From: Syntrophomonas sp. DTU019
GTDB taxonomy: Bacteria; Bacillota; Syntrophomonadia; Syntrophomonadales; Syntrophomonadaceae
Reading direction: 5' to 3'
Assembly (NCBI GenBank): GCA_913757435.1
Contig: CAJYDM010000001.1
Coordinates: 930,001-994,000 of the forward strand
Length of the DNA stretch: 64,000 bases
Of this stretch, positions 22,941 to 64,000 are shown piece after piece (the first letter of the stretch is position 1; each line of letters starts with the position of its first letter). Under the pieces are notes generated by a model that was given only the letters and a program-made list of their open reading frames with translations, did no database searches and was not told where the DNA came from. The position numbers and the translations under genes were made by a program.

Positions 22941-24201
22941 TCGAGGTACAATGTTGCTTTTTACCGTCACTGAATACCTCGCCAAGTTACAGTCTCTCTA
23001 TAAGTCTTAATAAGTCTTAGCGATAAAAAGAGAAGTGACTGGGCATCCATTCGCAAAGCGGAGGTTGTTTTGATTATCAGGGCGTACAGGCCTGGAAGGT
23101 CAGTATTTTACCTGCCGTTTTGGTACGAATATTGCATTATTTAATAACAAGTCAAAGGTTTACACCCTACGCAACAAATGCCGCACTAAATTTGAAAGGA
23201 TGATGTATGTAAGCCTAAGATGAAACTGGGGCAATTGTAGCCCTAGCCCTTCTAACTCCTCTTCTACAATTTTATTATTTGTGCGTTTCCCGCCATAAGT
23301 TATACTTGGCGGGAATTTTTTATCTGTGTTTGAAGGGGAATATCTTGGCTGTTTGGTGACAAGCAGGCGCGAACTGTTGATATAGATCGTGCTGATGAGG
23401 GGTGAGTGGAAGGGAACCTTGTCAGGCTATAGTATTTATTTGCTTGTCGGGTAGCAGGCGGGTATGATGCTGACATCCGATTTTAAAGAGGGTGATAACG
23501 GCTAAAAGTGGTGTGAGGTAATACATACAAGTGTGTCATCCACTATACACCTACCTGCACAGCCAGCAGGCTTGCCCGGAACTTCATATCCTTGGTACAG
23601 CAATCAACTCGGGCTATAGGCCGGGGTGGATATCATGGCCCCTGGAGCAGAGCTCCAACAATGGCTACCTTACAACTCTCTTAACAAATTGCAGCGGAAT
23701 GTTGACATCTGTCTGCAGGAACCGTGGCAGGGTAAAACCATGTTAACAGAATAGCATCGCAATCAAGGGTTAGTCATTAATTATATAACAATGCCATATG
23801 TCAACCGGGCAGATATCCCCAAACTGTTTGAGGTATACTGATAAACCCTGCTGGCCATATGGCTGAATTGTACACTAATTCATACAGGTGTATGCATAAA
23901 GGGACAAATTGATCGAATAATGTTTGCCGGACTATGCTGGTCTTTCTCGCGTGCCTTGAAGAGAAATCCCTTTCCGCCCAGCCCAGCGTTGTGGAATGGG
24001 CCAGAAAGGTTACAAAAAATTTATAGAAGGAGGAGAATTGTATAATACTTTATTAATGCAAAAATGATGCCATTACAATTACCAGAGATATCAGCGCGGG
24101 GGTTCGGTATAATTGTACTTCAAGTGTTAAATTGAGTGATCCGGTGGCTGGTTAGGTATGGAGGGTTAATTCCAATAGCTTCTGTTGAAACGGCCATTTG
24201 T
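22941..24201. other. 1.26-kb gap without a supported protein gene
   Basis: Only short frames lacking ribosome sites occur. Two hairpins end in T-rich tails: AATTGTAG/CTACAATT at about 23232-23275, and CCCGCCA/TGGCGGG with TTTTTT at 23289-23321. The latter could end an untranslated transcript from about 23130. AAGGAGGAG at 24027-24035 precedes only a 9-codon frame. Confidence 0.5.
23289..23321 (+). terminator. Terminator of an unknown transcript
   Basis: Perfect 7-bp stem CCCGCCA/TGGCGGG with an 11-base loop and an AATTTTTTAT tail. No gene with a ribosome site precedes it. Confidence 0.7.
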
Positions 24202-29684: not shown

Positions 29685-32381
29685 ATGGAAGAGTTTGTAC
29701 AGGTAATAGGTATTAATGAACAAAACTGCACCAACTGCCATCAATGCATAGTGGTTTGCCCGGTCAAGATTTGCAGTAATGGCAGCGGAGAGGTTATTAA
29801 ATTCAATAATGACTTGTGTATCGCCTGTGGGCGTTGCGTCACCGCCTGTGTGAAAAGCCACCGGGGTAACTGGGAAAAGAGTGCGCGTTTCATCATAGAT
29901 GATGCTGCGGAGTTCGCGGCTGCCTTGGGAAAACGTGAAATAGTAGCTCTGGTGGCGCCTTCTGCGGCCAGCAACTTCGATTTGCCCAAACTCCTGCAGG
30001 CCTTGCGGCAGTTGGGTATTAGTGCCGTGTATGATGTTTCTCTGGGAGCGGAGATAACTGTGGCCGCTTACCATCGGGTTATTGCCCAGGGTGGGGTGAA
30101 AAGACCGCTTATATCCACCCCCTGCCCGTCGATAGTCAGGTATATCGAATTAAACCATCCAGGTTTGATCCCCCATCTGGCTCCGGTGGGCAGCCCGGTA
30201 CGCAACCTGGCGGTATATGTGAGAGCGCAATATCCCCATGCGGAACTGGCGCTGATTTCACCCTGTCCGGCCAAATCCCGCGAGTTTCAGGATAGGCAGC
30301 TGGTGAGATATAATGTTACCTACCAGCATTTGCTGGGTGTTTTCGCACAGCGCGGTATCAAACTGGCCGAACTCGAAGACAGCACTTTCGACAATTTTGT
30401 ATCGGCAGGTATTACCGCCAGTTTTTCCACTCCGGGAGGTCTCAAGGCTTCATATCTTTATCATTATCCGGATACCGCAGCCAGTGACATAGCACGGATC
30501 GAAGGCTCCAGCGTATACCAGCAGTATCTGCGTAATCTGGAAAAGGATATCGGCCGTGGCGAGCAGCAGCTTCCTTTGATTGTGGACATTTTAAGTTGTG
30601 GGAAGGGCTGCAACATGGGCGTGGGCTCCATAAATAAAAGGATCGTGACCAGTGAGTTTAAGGTTGCCCGGCGCGCTGAGGAGAGTCTTAAAGACCCCGC
30701 TGTCAACCAGGAGCGTGACCAGTTTATCAGCCAATTACTGGACAAATATGACTTCAGCTATACCGACTATTGTGATCTGTCCGGGCGGGTGCGGCTGGAG
30801 ATACCTTCTGAAACTGAATTACAGAACATTTACCATGATATGCACAAGACTGAGGGGCGAGATTTCAGGAATTGTGCGGCCTGCGGCTATAATTCCTGCT
30901 ATTATATGGCGGTGGCGGTCTTCAACGGCCTCAACAAGGTGGAAAACTGCCATCTCTATCAGGAAAAACAGCTGCGTATCGAACAACAGTCACTGAAAAA
31001 CGTGCACGACGAACTGATCAATGTCTTCGATACCATGTCTGACGGGGTACTGGGAGTGGATAAAGACGGCCGGGTTTCACAATTCAACCCTGCCGCCAAA
31101 CAGATTATCGGCTATTCTAAGGAAAAACTGCTGGGAGTGCATATCGTGGACCTGTTCAGTGGCAAAGCGCCCAAGACTTTGAAACTGCTGCAGACCGGCG
31201 AGCCCTTTCATGACCAAGAAATATTGCTCAGCGGCAACGAGGGAAAGATACACGCGGCCGCCTCTGGCATACCTATATTTGATGAAGACAATCAGGTTAT
31301 TGGGGCTACTGTCATACTGCGCCCCATCGCCCGGGTGCAGGAACTGGTCAACCGTTTTACCGGCGCCCAGGCCAGTTTCACTTTTGAATCCATCATCGGC
31401 GAGGATAGACTGTTGCGGAGAGCCGTTAAACTGGCTATGAAGGCCGGAGCCAATAACTCAACAGTTTTATTGCAGGCCGAGAGCGGAACAGGTAAAGAGG
31501 TTTTCGCCCAGGCCATCCACAATGTCAGCGCCCGCCGATCGGGGCCTTTCGTGGCGATAAACTGCGCTGCCCTGCCCCGCGAACTGGTAGGCAGCGAGTT
31601 GTTCGGGTATGTGGAAGGAGCATTTACTGGGGCCAGACGCGGCGGACGCCCAGGAAAATTCGAGTTGGCCAACCATGGCACCCTGCTGTTAGACGAAATT
31701 GGAGATATGCCCCTCGAACAACAGGCGGTGCTGTTGCGCGCACTGCAAGAAAAAGCGGTGCTGCGCGTGGGCGGTGACACTCCCATCAAGGTGGATGTGC
31801 GCATAATCGCAGCTACCAACCAGAACTTGCCCGAACTGGTTGACCAGGGCCGATTCCGCGTGGACCTGTACTACCGACTCAATGTGGTTAGGATCAATAT
31901 TCCCGCCTTAAGGGAACGCCCTGGGGATATTAGGCTGTTGTTCAACCATTTCCTGGAGGAGATGTCCGGCCGCAGCATGCGCCGTATCAGTCAAGTCGAT
32001 GAGGCGGTCTACAAATACCTGGAAGCGTATCACTGGCCTGGCAATATTCGCGAACTGCAGAATGTGGTGGAAAGAATACTGTTGGTTATTGATGACTCTC
32101 GCATTACTGTAGACCATCTGCCTCGGGAGATTCTAATAGGTGATACAATTCATAAGGCGAACTCGATACCGGTTCAGGTGCCTGATTTTGCGAGCCCAGT
32201 TCCTCCGGGATACCTGGGTGACCGCCACACCCGTAAGCTGTTTGCGCTGGAACAGGAGAAGAAGCGTATCATTCAGGCACTGGATGCGCATGGCGGTAAT
32301 ATCAGCCGGGCTGCTGCTGAAATGGGCATCTCGCGCAGTACTTTTTACCGTCGCATGAAGGAATGTAAGATACTCAACTAA
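29685..32381 (+). CDS. [FeFe]-hydrogenase-like domain fused to PAS and sigma-54 activator
   Basis: 898 residues. Order: two [4Fe-4S] ferredoxin motifs ([23 protein letters not shown]; 1-60); [FeFe]-hydrogenase large-subunit domain (about 85-350) keeping the four H-cluster Cys (STPCPS near 144, SPCPAK near 192, SCGKGC near 304-310); an Fe-S domain CAACGYNSC near 400; PAS (445-550); AAA+ sigma-54 domain with ESGTGKE and GAFTGA; Fis-type helix-turn-helix end. The Cys used for proton relay in catalytic enzymes (before CP in motif L1) is Pro, which favours sensing over turnover. It probably reads H2 or redox state and activates sigma-54 promoters; that is inference. Confidence 0.9.
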
Positions 32382-32387
32382 GATGTT

Positions 32388-32446
32388 ACAATTGTGCCAA
32401 ATGTGTAGCTTTGTTTACGCAAGTGTTCATTATTGAAACAATTGTG
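32388..32446 (+). promoter_or_regulatory. Two ACAATTGTG sites, candidate activator-binding sites
   Basis: ACAATTGTG occurs at 32388-32396 and 32438-32446, 50 bases apart, centred on the palindrome ACAATTGT. They lie 110-170 bases upstream of the sigma-54 promoter at 32557, the normal position of enhancer sites for such activators. Confidence 0.55.
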
Positions 32447-32496
32447 ATACAATATCGCGGACAGCATCATTTCACCTTTGTTGCTAAGAGACTTGA

Positions 32497-32521
32497 ACGC
32501 CCCAATTATGGGGCGTTTTTA
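32497..32521 (+). terminator. Terminator of the regulator gene
   Basis: ACGCCCC / GGGGCGT stem with 6-base loop AATTAT, then TTTTTATT. It isolates the following sigma-54 unit from the regulator transcript. Confidence 0.85.
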
Positions 32522-32556
32522 TTGTGACTCGTTCAAGGTGGGCTGCATTTATGAGT

Positions 32557-32573
32557 TGGCACACTAGTTGCAT
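32557..32573 (+). promoter_or_regulatory. Sigma-54 promoter
   Basis: TTGGCACACTAGTTGCAT carries TGGCAC-N5-TTGCA, an essentially perfect -24/-12 element. It faces away from the regulator gene; the predicted start is near 32583. Confidence 0.85.
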
Positions 32574-32582
32574 AATAAATGG

Positions 32583-32688
32583 TCATACGATTTAACCGGA
32601 TATTTTTATGTGCTAAAGATAACATGCCTACTTCTACGGGTGATCAGGGCGAACCTTCAAAATTCCCCCCTGAATCACCCGTTTTTTT
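32583..32688 (+). ncRNA. Candidate sigma-54-dependent small RNA, about 105 nt
   Basis: Runs from the predicted start of the sigma-54 promoter to a strong terminator: ACGGGTGAT-CAGGG pairs with CCCTG-A-ATCACCCGT (32636-32682), followed by seven T. No frame with a ribosome site fits inside. It is bounded on the left by the regulator's terminator, so it is an independent unit. The existence of the transcript is inferred. Confidence 0.6.
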
Positions 32689-32721
32689 GTGCTATCTAGG
32701 AAAGTTGATAACGATACAGGT

Positions 32722-32773
32722 AATTGGGAAATGTCCCTCATTATTGACAATCAGTGGATGTGTACAGTATACT
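32722..32773 (+). repeat. Left 52-bp target duplication of IS copy 1
   Basis: Identical to 34723-34774. It contains a complete promoter (TTGACA, 18 bases, TATACT) and ends exactly at the last base of the -10. Confidence 0.92.
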
Positions 32774-34722
32774 CCCGTCTTTGACACTTAGTGAAGAGAA
32801 AAAAGCTCGTAAACTCCTAAAACAAGGGGGTTGCGAGCTTTTCACGTGTTAGTAAAAAGTGAGTACTATTTGTCTAAGACTTAGTAGCTTTAAAAATTTT
32901 TTTCATCTGTCGCATGGGGAGAATCTGGTAGTCAGTACGGAAGCCAAACACATCATGAAGATTATCCGTGAAGTCCGTTCTCATATAGGTGGGGACGAAA
33001 CCCTCCCCTTTGACCTCATAGAAATTCATGTCACGCAGCCCCTGAACGATCTCACTGCAGGTGTATTGCTCACCTAACGTCTTCTTCAAGAGTCGGTAGA
33101 TCACCAGCGCGATAAAACATATAATAAAATGCGCCATTATCCTGTCATCGCGGCTAAGGTATACCGGTCTAGCCTTAAACTCGCTTTTCATGATCCTGAA
33201 GCACTCCTCAATCTGCCAGCGCCTCCTATTTACCGCAAGGATAGCAGCGGCGTCGCCGTCAAGGTTAGTGCAAACCGCGTAGAAACCATCAAAAGCCTCC
33301 TCTTTCTGGATGACAGAGTTATCGATTTCATATACCGCCTTGCTGGCAACCTCACCCTCAGGGGTAATGCTGGTTTTCTTGATAAAACGTTTGTAGTCGT
33401 TTTGGTTCACCTTCGTAAGTTTCCCCAAATTCGTGTTAAGGACTTTGCGAGCACGCTCAATTTGGGCGTTCCTGACCTTGCGTTGATAATCTTGGTACTT
33501 GAGCGAAAAAGACACAATAAGCTTCTGCTCCAGCCCATCCTCCACAATCCAACGCTCCTTGTAAAAAGTCTTTTCCATGTCTTTGTTTTCATCAAGCTTG
33601 TCCAGACTGTATACGGAGGTATCGCCCGGGAGGCGCCAGCCCTCAGGGCTTAATGCCCATTCTCTTAGGTGTTTCTTCAGCTTCTTGACCGACTGCGTAG
33701 TGATGAAAGCTCGCTCGCCCTGGTTGTTGAATTGACGGTTACTATTGGAAGCGAGCCCTGCATCGGTGCAGACGATGAACTTGGAGCAGTTAAAGTCAGA
33801 CAGTATTTTCTTCTCCAGCGGTTTTAGCGTCAGTTGCTCGTTAGTATTGCCTTTGCCAATATATACGGCTAAAGGCACCCCATCCCCATCCATGAAAAGC
33901 CCCATCTGGACAATGGGGTTAGGGCGGTGCTCTTTGGAGTAGCCGTATTGCTTGATGCCTGACTCCTGCTCAATTTCGAAGAAGTAATTGGTGCAGTCAT
34001 AGTACAGCACCCGCGTGTTCCGCTCTGACACAGCCAGGCTGTTGGAATAAAGAGACGCCTGGATAGAGTCAGCCTCTTTGGCAATTATCTCCAACGCACG
34101 GTAGATTTGGTGGAGATCAAACGATGGCTGTTCTATGAACCTTGAGGAAAGTTGGAATGTAGAAAGCTTAGAGGAAGGGTAGATAATCCTGGCGTAGATA
34201 AGTCTGGATAGGATGGAGTCCAGGTCGTAAGAAAACTTGTACTTCTTAGAGATAGCTCTGCACATTTTATCAAGCTTCAGTTCGTGATATATCTTCTGCA
34301 AAAAGAGGTATCCGCCGTTGAATAAGCGCTGCTGGCCTTTATCAATAGTCTTGATCGGGGAATACTTAACTAGGACATCGCGTTTGTTAAGCTTTTCCTC
34401 CTCGTTAAGTTTGGCAATATACTCCTTGGCCCACTCGATCGGGTCTTGCCCGCCCAATTTTTTCTTAAGTTCATCATATGTACCAAGCTTTTCAACAATC
34501 TTGGAAGAATGAACGCCATTGACATAGGTGGACTTTATGACATAAAGCGAAGCAGCATTTTTTGACCTAGAAATTTTTAGCCGCATAGAAAACACCTCCC
34601 ATCCCTTATATTATGACACATTACTCAAAAGTACTCAATACAAAAGTGTAACAATTGACAAAAAAATTAGCCCTTTTCGGGCTTCTCTAACCTTTTTCTA
34701 CTATTCAACTGTCAAAGACCCG
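32774..34722 (-). mobile_element. IS1634-like insertion sequence, copy 1 (1949 bp)
   Basis: Ends CCCGTCTTTGACA and (inverted) CGGGTCTTTGACA. One transposase gene on the minus strand, with a terminator hairpin AAAAGCTCG/CGAGCTTTT near the left end (about 32799-32844). Flanked by a 52-bp direct duplication. IS1634/IS1549 relatives are known for long, variable target duplications. It differs from the copy at 61560 by only a few bases. Confidence 0.93.
32874..34586 (-). CDS. IS1634-family transposase
   Basis: 570 residues from the ATG at 34586, which has GGGAGG 8 bases upstream; a GTG 9 bases earlier is less likely. DDE-type domain: YYDCTNYFFEIE, then CTDAGLAS, then the C-terminal RRRWQIEECFRIMKSEF with the YREK-like region of the IS4 superfamily. 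The protein is identical to that of the second copy, so both are probably recent and intact. Confidence 0.93.
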   Translation of the reverse strand: MRLKISRSKNAASLYVIKSTYVNGVHSSKIVEKLGTYDELKKKLGGQDPIEWAKEYIAKLNEEEKLNKRDVLVKYSPIKTIDKGQQRLFNGGYLFLQKIYHELKLDKMCRAISKKYKFSYDLDSILSRLIYARIIYPSSKLSTFQLSSRFIEQPSFDLHQIYRALEIIAKEADSIQASLYSNSLAVSERNTRVLYYDCTNYFFEIEQESGIKQYGYSKEHRPNPIVQMGLFMDGDGVPLAVYIGKGNTNEQLTLKPLEKKILSDFNCSKFIVCTDAGLASNSNRQFNNQGERAFITTQSVKKLKKHLREWALSPEGWRLPGDTSVYSLDKLDENKDMEKTFYKERWIVEDGLEQKLIVSFSLKYQDYQRKVRNAQIERARKVLNTNLGKLTKVNQNDYKRFIKKTSITPEGEVASKAVYEIDNSVIQKEEAFDGFYAVCTNLDGDAAAILAVNRRRWQIEECFRIMKSEFKARPVYLSRDDRIMAHFIICFIALVIYRLLKKTLGEQYTCSEIVQGLRDMNFYEVKGEGFVPTYMRTDFTDNLHDVFGFRTDYQILPMRQMKKIFKATKS

Positions 34723-34774
34723 AATTGGGAAATGTCCCTCATTATTGACAATCAGTGGATGTGTACAGTATACT
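34723..34774 (+). repeat. Right 52-bp target duplication of IS copy 1, carrying a promoter
   Basis: Second copy of the 52-bp duplication. The promoter TTGACA (34745-34750), spacer 18, TATACT (34769-34774) is kept here and faces the GreA/GreB-like gene, so the insertion did not separate that gene from its promoter. Confidence 0.9.
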
Positions 34775-34784
34775 GTAAACAATA

Positions 34785-34810
34785 GGTACCCGGCGGTGAG
34801 GCCGGGTACC
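34785..34810 (+). promoter_or_regulatory. Leader hairpin, 10-bp perfect stem
   Basis: GGTACCCGGC / GCCGGGTACC with a 6-base loop lies between the promoter and the GreA/GreB-like gene. Only a weak T-rich tail (TAATTATTAT) follows, so it may be an attenuator or an RNA-stabilising stem. Confidence 0.5.
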
Positions 34811-34864
34811 TAATTATTATGGGTACTAATTACCATTTAATGTATGGGTGGAGGAGGATGACAT

Positions 34865-50827: not shown

Positions 50828-51099
50828 GACCGAGGCAAGCTGTTTATAATTAAAAAAATTATATTACCTTATGTTTCAGGTGCCCCTTTGGGGGATAATA
50901 GGGAATCAGGTGCAAGACCTGAACGGACCCGCCACTGTAACCGGAGAGCTCCAAAAGCCGCAAAGCCACTGGGTAACTGGGAAGGCTGGCTAAAATGGTG
51001 AGAGCGTTTGATTCGGGAGTCAGGAGACCTGCCTGAGAACATGCGGTTGAGGATGAAGGTAAAGTTCTCAAGTCTAATCGGCTTGGGGACTTTTTATTT
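50821..51099 (+). promoter_or_regulatory. Cobalamin riboswitch with promoter and terminator, controls cobT
   Basis: Promoter TTGCCA (50821-50826), spacer 18, TATAAT (50845-50850). Aptamer about 50870-51040 with GGGAATCAGGTGCAAGACCT, the B12 box GCCACTGTAA, AGCCACTGGG, GGGAAGGC and GTCAGGAGACCTGCC. A rho-independent terminator follows (AGTTCTCAAG/CTTGGGGACT plus TTTTTATTTTT, 51063-51099). B12 binding is expected to stop transcription before cobT. Confidence 0.95.
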
Positions 51100-52376: not shown

Positions 52377-53777
52377 GAGCGACCGAGCAAGGTCGTGACA
52401 TATAGTGGGTGAGAAGCCCACCGAGAAAGGACTAGCCAACCACTCGTAGCCAGCCTTGGAGCGCAACTGGCAACAGAAGCGTTTAAGCGTAGGCAGGCGA
52501 GGTAATGGGCCGAAAGCCAGAGGCTGAAGGGAATGAGCCCCGAAATGTGTGTGGATGAGGAGGCCGATGCCGTACGTCCAGCAGAAGGCAACACCTCAGC
52601 GGTCGATAGGGCGAGAACGCTGAGGCTCCTCCGGGGTCAGAGACCTTGGCACGTTACACATTGTTAAGTCACGGTAACTCGGGAGACCCTGACAGTTCTT
52701 CCGCAGGGGAGTATGGCCGACAAGCAATACAAAGCAAGGGAGCCAAAAGTCTGTCAGGGAGTCGGATTGCTGCATAGTACTGATGAACAGGGTAATGCCT
52801 GGGGAGGAAAGGCGGCAACGTATTATAGCCCTTAGTCAAGGAAACATTGTCCTACTGGAGAGGAGAAGACAGTGGAAACGCAACTGGCAAGGATAGCCGA
52901 ACGAGCAAGAGAAAATCCCAAGTACAAATTCATGACCCTAATCCATCTCATCAACGAGGATACGCTAAGTGCTGCACATAACCAGATGGCAGCACGAAAA
53001 GCACCAGGAGTGGATGGGGTAACCAGAAAAGACTACGGCGAAAACCTGGAAGAAAACATCAAAAACCTGGTGTCAAGAATGAAGAAACAAGCCTACAAAC
53101 CGCAAGAGGTCAGGCGGGTTCGCATCCCCAAGCCAGGAACAGACAAAACGCGTCCGCTCGGAATACCCGCCTATGAAGACAAACTTGTACAGGCAGTAGC
53201 AGCACAGATACTAAACGCCATCTATGAACAGGACTTCATGGGTTTCTCCTATGGATTTCGACCCAAGCGGAGTGCGCACGATGCATTAAAGCACCTTAAC
53301 AAGCTCATAGAGGATCATCGAGTAAACTACATCGTGGACGCTGACATCAAGGGATTCTTTGACCATGTGGATCACAAATGGGTAATGGAATTTCTAAAGG
53401 AACGCATAGCAGACACGAACATGCTACGACTCATCTACCGATTCCTCAGAGCAGGGGTGATAGAAGCCGGGGTAAGATATGATACCCCCGAGGGAACTCC
53501 CCAGGGCGGGGTAATATCACCAATACTGGCAAATGTGTACTTACACTATGTATTGGATCTATGGTTTCAGAAAGTAGTGCGAAAGCATTGCCGTGGTTCG
53601 GCCCATATGGTAAGGTGTCGCCTTGCACGCAAAATAGGCGCTAAAAGGGACTTCTTTTTGCATATTCCGCCTGCAGGCAGTCTAGTCTGCAAACGCTAGA
53701 ATCTGCTAAACTTCTTGCATAATAAAGTGCAGGAGTGTTTAAGTTGCAACTTCCTTGGAATTTTAAGCTGAGCCCAG

Positions 53778-57990: not shown

Positions 57991-58893
57991 TGAATGAATC
58001 TGACTCTTTAAGTGCCAATGTGCAAATTAAGGGTTCTTGCATATTGGCACTTTCTTCTTCGCCCTTCTCGCGCACTTATATTCTGCAATCATCCAGGATA
58101 TTTAGCGTGCAAAGCTACAGTAAGGTACGCAGACGACTTTGTATGCTGTTTTGAATTTGAGGAAGACGCCCGAAGATTCTACGTCGCACTAGAGAAGAGA
58201 CTGGCGAAATTCAACCTCGAGCTGGCCGCTGACAAAAGCCAGATCATAGCATTCGGAAAGAAGGCGGAGGCAGAGGCTAAAGCAAACGGGCTGCCCAAAC
58301 CCGGGACTTTCGACTTTCTAGGTTTCACACACTATTGCGGAAAGAGCAGGCATGGTAAATTTCGTGTAAAGCGGAAAACCTGTCGCAAGAAATTCAAAAT
58401 TAGTGTAGCCAAGGCAAAGGAATGGATAAAGTCACATCGACACATTCCGGTGCCGGATATTATGGAGGTGCTGAAGAGGAAGCTGCAGGGCTACTATCAG
58501 TACTATGCAGTGACGGATAACAGCGACGCGCTCTATCGGTACAAGGAACAGATAGAGAGACTCCTATTCAAGTGGCTAAACCGACGAAGTCAGAGGAAGA
58601 GTTTTGGATGGGACAAATTCCAGAAAATGCTAAGAAAGTACCCACTACCAAGGCCAAAGATAGCTGTAAACATATTTGACATGAGGTGGGAAATCTCTAG
58701 CTGAGAAGGCAAATGATAATACGAAGAGCCGTATGCGTTAATAGCGCACGTACGGTTCTGTGAGGGGTAAGGGTACAATCGTATGGAAATTAAGTACGGT
58801 TGAGCTAGTGAGACACTGCCAACCGAAAGGGGCAGAAACCGAGTAGGCTCAACCTAACCTTAATCATCTGGCGAGAGGCCCTGCCTACTCGAC

Positions 58894-63781: not shown

Positions 63782-63799
63782 GATTGCAACTCAAAAGTT

Positions 63800-63960
63800 G
63801 AAGCTACTGGTCCCGCAAGGGATAAAGGGAATCAGGTTAAAGGCCTGAGCGGTCCCGCCACTGTAACCAGTACGAACCACACATTAGCCACTGAGCAATC
63901 GGGAAGGGGTGTGGGGAGGATGACCTGGGAGCCAGTAAACCTGCCAATAGCTTGCGCAAC
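63800..63960 (+). promoter_or_regulatory. Second cobalamin riboswitch
   Basis: Aptamer with GGGAATCAGGTTAAAGGCCT, B12 box GCCACTGTAA, AGCCACTGAGCAATCGGGAAGG and GCCAGTAAACCTGCC. The controlled gene lies beyond the window. An inverted ACCCCGA/GGGTCGGTTT at 63964-63983 may be the start of the expression platform. Confidence 0.93.
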
Positions 63961-64000
63961 AGAACCCCGAGGAAGGGTCGGTTTGCACAGTGTGGTTAGC

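Follow-up and report, generated by a model that had tools for sequence, protein, structure and literature searches.

What is transcribed from the short interval downstream of a hydrogenase-like regulator gene, and what commands that transcription? Syntrophic fatty-acid oxidisers, which grow at the limit of what thermodynamics allows, have to respond to H2, by a mechanism that is poorly known. The interval lies in the window (the whole stretch of 64,000 nucleotides that was analysed), and the initial annotation described it as a sigma-54 promoter driving an apparent, independent small RNA made when the sensor is active. Our analysis of the window and of related genomes suggests that positions 32583-32688 are probably the gene for a trans-acting small RNA of about 105 nt, which would depend on sigma-54 and be commanded by the adjacent activator. 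The reading draws on sequence: the promoter, its enhancers, the hairpin, their conservation and the genome context. The closest relatives used for comparison were three Syntrophomonas-type MAGs, UBA4922, UBA4807 and DTU019.

The promoter, TTGGCACACTAGTTGCA, is located at 32556-32572 of the plus strand, with the -24 GG at 32558-32559 and the -12 GC at 32570-32571. It had been called near-perfect; it matches the consensus exactly. Exact TTGGCAYN5TTGCW sequences occur three times in the window, far above the 0.08 expected from shuffled sequence, and 11 times across the 3.2-Mb genome; when up to one mismatch was allowed, 107 sites were found versus 19 for the reversed control. Sigma-54 is encoded by the same genome, and alignment showed that the promoter is kept in UBA4922 and UBA4807. 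The promoter scan listed no sigma-70-like promoter on the plus strand at 32381-32743. Judged from the -12 element, transcription would start at about 32583, some 105 nt before the T-tract of the terminator. The predicted 5′ part of the RNA (32583-32624, plus strand) differs among species. Comparison of the species revealed no conserved reading frame in the unit (UBA4807 has a 1-nt deletion within the conserved block and no start codon, DTU019 a stop), in agreement with the earlier view that nothing between promoter and terminator is coding.

The terminator itself consists of a hairpin at 32636-32682 (plus strand; arms 32636-32649 and 32668-32682, loop CGAACCTTCAAAATTCCC at 32650-32667) and a T-tract at 32683-32688, the T-run being kept in all four species. 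Folding gave -22.7 kcal/mol with z = -4.3, which bears out the strong terminator proposed for this place. The hairpin is not listed in a simple terminator scan because the scan allows loops of up to 8 nt and this loop has 18. Half of the C6 run sits within the stem. The hairpin belongs to a conserved block at 32625-32687 (plus strand) that is identical in UBA4922 at 63 of 63 positions, although the regulator of that species is only 80% identical. No longer exact match exists between the window and the 135-kb syntenic contig of UBA4922, and neither coding nor tRNA sequence equals it; the runners-up are two stretches of 47 nt each. Unlike the block, the 5′ part of the transcript and the spacers diverge between species in the alignment. 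The UBA4807 copy is 91% identical over 69 nt, and in the DTU019 copy a bulge is shifted and most of the loop is kept; folding showed that the hairpin is retained in both. No Rfam model matched the RNA, either across the window at the gathering score or within 32380-32870 at the relaxed threshold of E <= 10; this includes the covariance models of Qrr and of RoxS/RsaE.

Rfam matches elsewhere in the window, at 52412-52646, 58724-58893, 50861-51050 and 63791-63962, correspond to two group II introns and two cobalamin riboswitches. Downstream of the unit an insertion sequence occupies 32722-34774, with a DDE transposase gene at 32874-34595 on the minus strand; it is missing from UBA4922 and UBA4807. 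A perfect 52-bp direct repeat flanks it (32722-32773 and 34723-34774), and the duplicated piece bears the promoter-like element that belongs to the greA-like gene downstream. A leader hairpin of that gene, TAGGTACCCGGC..GCCGGGTACCTA at 34783-34812, is kept in UBA4922 and UBA4807.

The gene upstream of the unit, at 29685-32381 on the plus strand, was assigned to a sensor-activator from Pfam, its translation and PDB sequence matches to [FeFe] hydrogenases. Its product combines ferredoxin clusters, an [FeFe]-hydrogenase large-subunit domain, an Fe-S motif, PAS, a sigma-54 AAA+ domain with GAFTGA and a Fis-type HTH, so that the neighbour is a sigma-54 activator as had been supposed. In Pfam terms it has the layout of sensory [FeFe] hydrogenases of group C, with a hydrogenase domain, a C-terminal Fe-S motif and PAS. 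Read by eye, the hydrogenase motifs retain candidate cluster-ligand cysteines, but in the TSCCP motif the first cysteine is replaced by proline (STPCPS), which would fit a sensor better than an enzyme. From the hydrogenase-like domain we infer that H2 may be the signal. In S. wolfei, the hydrogenase-domain histidine kinase Swol_1040 has a suggested role in the control of hydrogen production (PMC4324140). The regulator gene does end at a terminator of its own (32495-32525, also given as 32495-32518, plus strand, from the terminator scan), which is kept in UBA4922 and UBA4807. The loop of this terminator has changed between species, in contrast to the identical 18-nt loop of the small-RNA hairpin.

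An enhancer motif was learned from 14 orthologous loci, using only the 110 bp past the regulator stop and leaving out the window and its three close relatives. The palindromic motif obtained was TGTnACAnnnnTGTnACA. Its best site in the window is TGTTACAATTGTGCCAAA at 32384-32401 (15.0 bits) and the second best is TGAAACAATTGTGATACA at 32434-32451 (12.4 bits); the best scores of 200-bp segments have their 99th percentile at 10.8. Both sites fall between the regulator's stop codon and its terminator, 105-172 bp upstream of the promoter, and UBA4922 and UBA4807 have a pair with similar spacing. The motif is also found upstream of the regulator itself (11.4 bits) and precedes distant sigma-54 genes encoding members of a 190-aa protein family, at C7:17877 (13.4 and 12.8 bits) and C1:40995 (9.5 bits). 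Judged by sequence, these occurrences make up a coherent regulon. As the best sites of the motif lie upstream of the promoter and the motif recurs at distant sigma-54 genes, it is very likely that the adjacent activator governs the small-RNA promoter. With this, the unit has these features of a sigma-54-dependent small RNA: promoter, upstream activator sites, non-coding sequence and intrinsic terminator. The 190-aa family lacks a Pfam assignment; the members at C1:41111-41698 and C7:17443-17805 (the latter short) carry sigma-54 promoters together with the motif of the hydrogenase-type activator.

A covariance model of the hairpin found matches in four species of a single genus among 63 genomes of the order. 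No homologous hairpins were detected outside the genus in these genomes, and no convincing second copy was found within it. Promoter, enhancers and hairpin are retained together in three of the four species. In DTU019 both promoter and enhancers are absent and the hairpin lies about 41 nt 3′ of the regulator stop codon with nothing between, so that an RNA could arise there only from the regulator mRNA, at its 3′ end. The predicted independence of the small RNA stands, as a non-coding sigma-54 unit with its own promoter, for three species and not for DTU019, whose hairpin is promoterless. The proposed tie to the sensor likewise holds within the genus, where the two enhancer sites and the unit are kept beside orthologous regulators; outside it the target differs. 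In most Syntrophomonadaceae with enough downstream sequence, a sigma-54 promoter at the same position leads to the 190-aa protein, occasionally to another small protein instead, and it drives a protein gene in at least 10 relatives. In the window's genome, copies of the 190-aa family are located elsewhere. Given this promoter arrangement outside the genus, the small RNA appears to have taken over the place of an ancestral 190-aa target.

The same comparison could be explained by decay: the ancestral 190-aa gene was lost, its promoter persists as a remnant, and the terminator stops a useless transcript and thereby shields the downstream greA-like gene. The protein-driving promoters of the relatives and the family copies kept elsewhere in the genome would fit this explanation, which we nevertheless regard as unlikely. 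If the unit were a relic, it would be surprising to find the promoter still in place together with both enhancers and a 63-nt block whose 18-nt loop is identical, while the regulator's own terminator nearby has an altered one, and in DTU019 the hairpin was retained though the promoter is absent. The arrangement in DTU019 is, for its part, what would be seen if the conserved part were a 3′-end element of the regulator mRNA, that is, a terminator or a 3′UTR-derived RNA to which a separate promoter was added secondarily. The regulator gene has its own sigma-54-like element, which reads GGCACGATTATTGC in the window and TGGCATGGAAATTGCA in DTU019, and GlnZ is a known RpoN-dependent 3′UTR RNA (PMC9731577). 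Against this, the gene and the hairpin are set apart in three species by a distinct terminator and by a promoter matching the consensus, and we give this explanation a rather low probability.

The near-perfect and strongly conserved inverted repeat might also act as DNA, as a protein-binding palindrome of a recombination or operator site. This is highly improbable: the T-tract is on one side only, the element is single-copy and keeps a constant orientation behind the activator, and the bulge shift in DTU019 preserves the fold. A short peptide gene with the frame ..PTSTGDQGEPSKFPPESPVF, open in the window and in UBA4922, was rejected and has next to no likelihood. Its sole start within the transcript lacks a Shine-Dalgarno sequence, is TTG in UBA4922 and is missing in UBA4807, and the deletion and the stop described above interrupt the frame in UBA4807 and DTU019.

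Under the preferred reading, a small RNA gene commanded by the activator, the [FeFe]-hydrogenase-like/PAS protein would bind the two palindromic sites just past its own stop codon and be switched on by a signal, presumably redox state or H2. The activated regulator would then turn on sigma-54 RNA polymerase at 32556-32572, and the transcript would stop at the conserved hairpin. The C-rich end of the loop, CCUUCAAAAUUCCCCCC, is the likely seed and would serve in base pairing with ribosome-binding sites that are G-rich. The unit would have arisen where the rest of the family has the activator's promoter driving the 190-aa protein. Transcription, signal, seed function and targets of the small RNA are what we infer from this arrangement.

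The pairing step is the weakest part of the proposed mechanism. The pattern AGGGGGGAA..ATG gave 14 matches in the window's own genome versus 3 for reversed controls, and many of them are not real starts. Recurrence in three species was seen only for atpB, identified by its sequence as F0 subunit a. This lead is weak, since conservation is expected of Shine-Dalgarno sites in any case. Against 101 ribosome-binding sites the loop gave duplex energies no better than those of shuffled loops of the same composition. The affinity of the loop for such sites is explained by base composition alone, and no target is supported. Matches to ATTCCCCCCTAACTCCTT elsewhere in the order were considered as small RNA units and rejected; they lie mostly on the strand opposite the ribosome-binding sites of other genes.

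Four further units of sigma-54 promoter, short RNA and terminator, with C-rich motifs and orthologs in relatives, were found in the same genome. Three are arranged in tandem on the minus strand at C1:288.6-289.25 kb beside a MATE-like transporter gene, and DTU019 has an orthologous array. These units have in common the C-rich stretches ATTCCCCCC(T)AACTCCTT or CTTCTAAACTCCTCTTC. The ATTCCCCCC of two of these units is also present in the loop of the 32583-32688 RNA, which may point either to common targets or merely to the usual C-rich seed of Firmicute small RNAs. The remaining unit is in the window, at 23120-23330 on the plus strand, with the promoter TTGGTACGAATATTGCA, about 190 nt of non-coding sequence containing the motif GCCCTTCTAACTCCTCTTC, and a terminator; its ortholog is on contig C28 of UBA4807. 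Control of the array and of the 23120 unit by the hydrogenase-type activator was rejected, since the enhancer motif scores no better than background at these loci; both are likely under another activator. At C4:30950-32100 of the same genome and at two further loci (L231 and L232), another sigma-54 activator is followed by a promoter, a long conserved leader, a gene for a MORN-repeat-like protein and then, ahead of the terminator, a C-rich 3′ end that is conserved.

More tentatively, and at somewhat less than even chances, a hydrogenase-type sensor of a syntrophic Gram-positive bacterium would directly command a small RNA within a wider, undescribed set of sigma-54-dependent C-rich small RNAs (32583-32688, 23120-23330, the three-unit array and the orthologs) and would in this way retune energy metabolism post-transcriptionally to H2 or redox state. 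If true, the small RNA would be a direct and testable output of a hydrogenase-like sensor; to our knowledge, the physiological targets of such sensors are generally unknown. The sigma-54-dependent small RNAs known to us (Qrr, GlmY, CrcZ and GlnZ) are all from Gram-negatives. None was found for Clostridia-type Firmicutes in the open-access literature that was searched, which does not prove that they are absent.

Several known systems come close to this one. Putative sensory [FeFe] hydrogenases of groups C and D (HydS; PMC13104023) have N-terminal clusters, a hydrogenase domain and, as in group C, a C-terminal Fe-S cluster with PAS; the regulator described here differs in carrying its output, a sigma-54 AAA+ and HTH, as a direct fusion and in having STPCPS in place of TSCCP. 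RoxS/RsaE of Bacillus and Staphylococcus (PMC4409812) is a Firmicute small RNA that is controlled by a redox/respiration regulator and has C-rich regions able to pair with G-rich Shine-Dalgarno sequences, but that regulator is the response regulator ResD/SrrA and no sigma-54 activator, and the Rfam model of RoxS/RsaE does not match here. GlnZ, from the 3′UTR of glnA, is likewise a non-coding arm of an RpoN regulon and resembles the layout in DTU019; it is freed from mRNA by RNase E (PMC9731577), whereas the unit described here has its own promoter in three species. A further parallel is Qrr1 of Vibrio, a sigma-54-dependent small RNA adjoining luxO, the gene of its sigma-54 activator (PMC8043402, PMC4211561). 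Here the host is a Gram-positive anaerobe, hydrogenase-like sensing stands in place of the Vibrio phosphorelay, the arrangement is tandem instead of divergent, the siblings seemingly answer to other activators, the terminator loop holds the presumed seed, and the lack of an Rfam match indicates no sequence relation. Nevertheless, in both cases the small RNA adjoins the activator gene, has a conserved core and has siblings elsewhere in the genome, and by this analogy we judge that the 32583-32688 RNA would work like Qrr1 beside LuxO.
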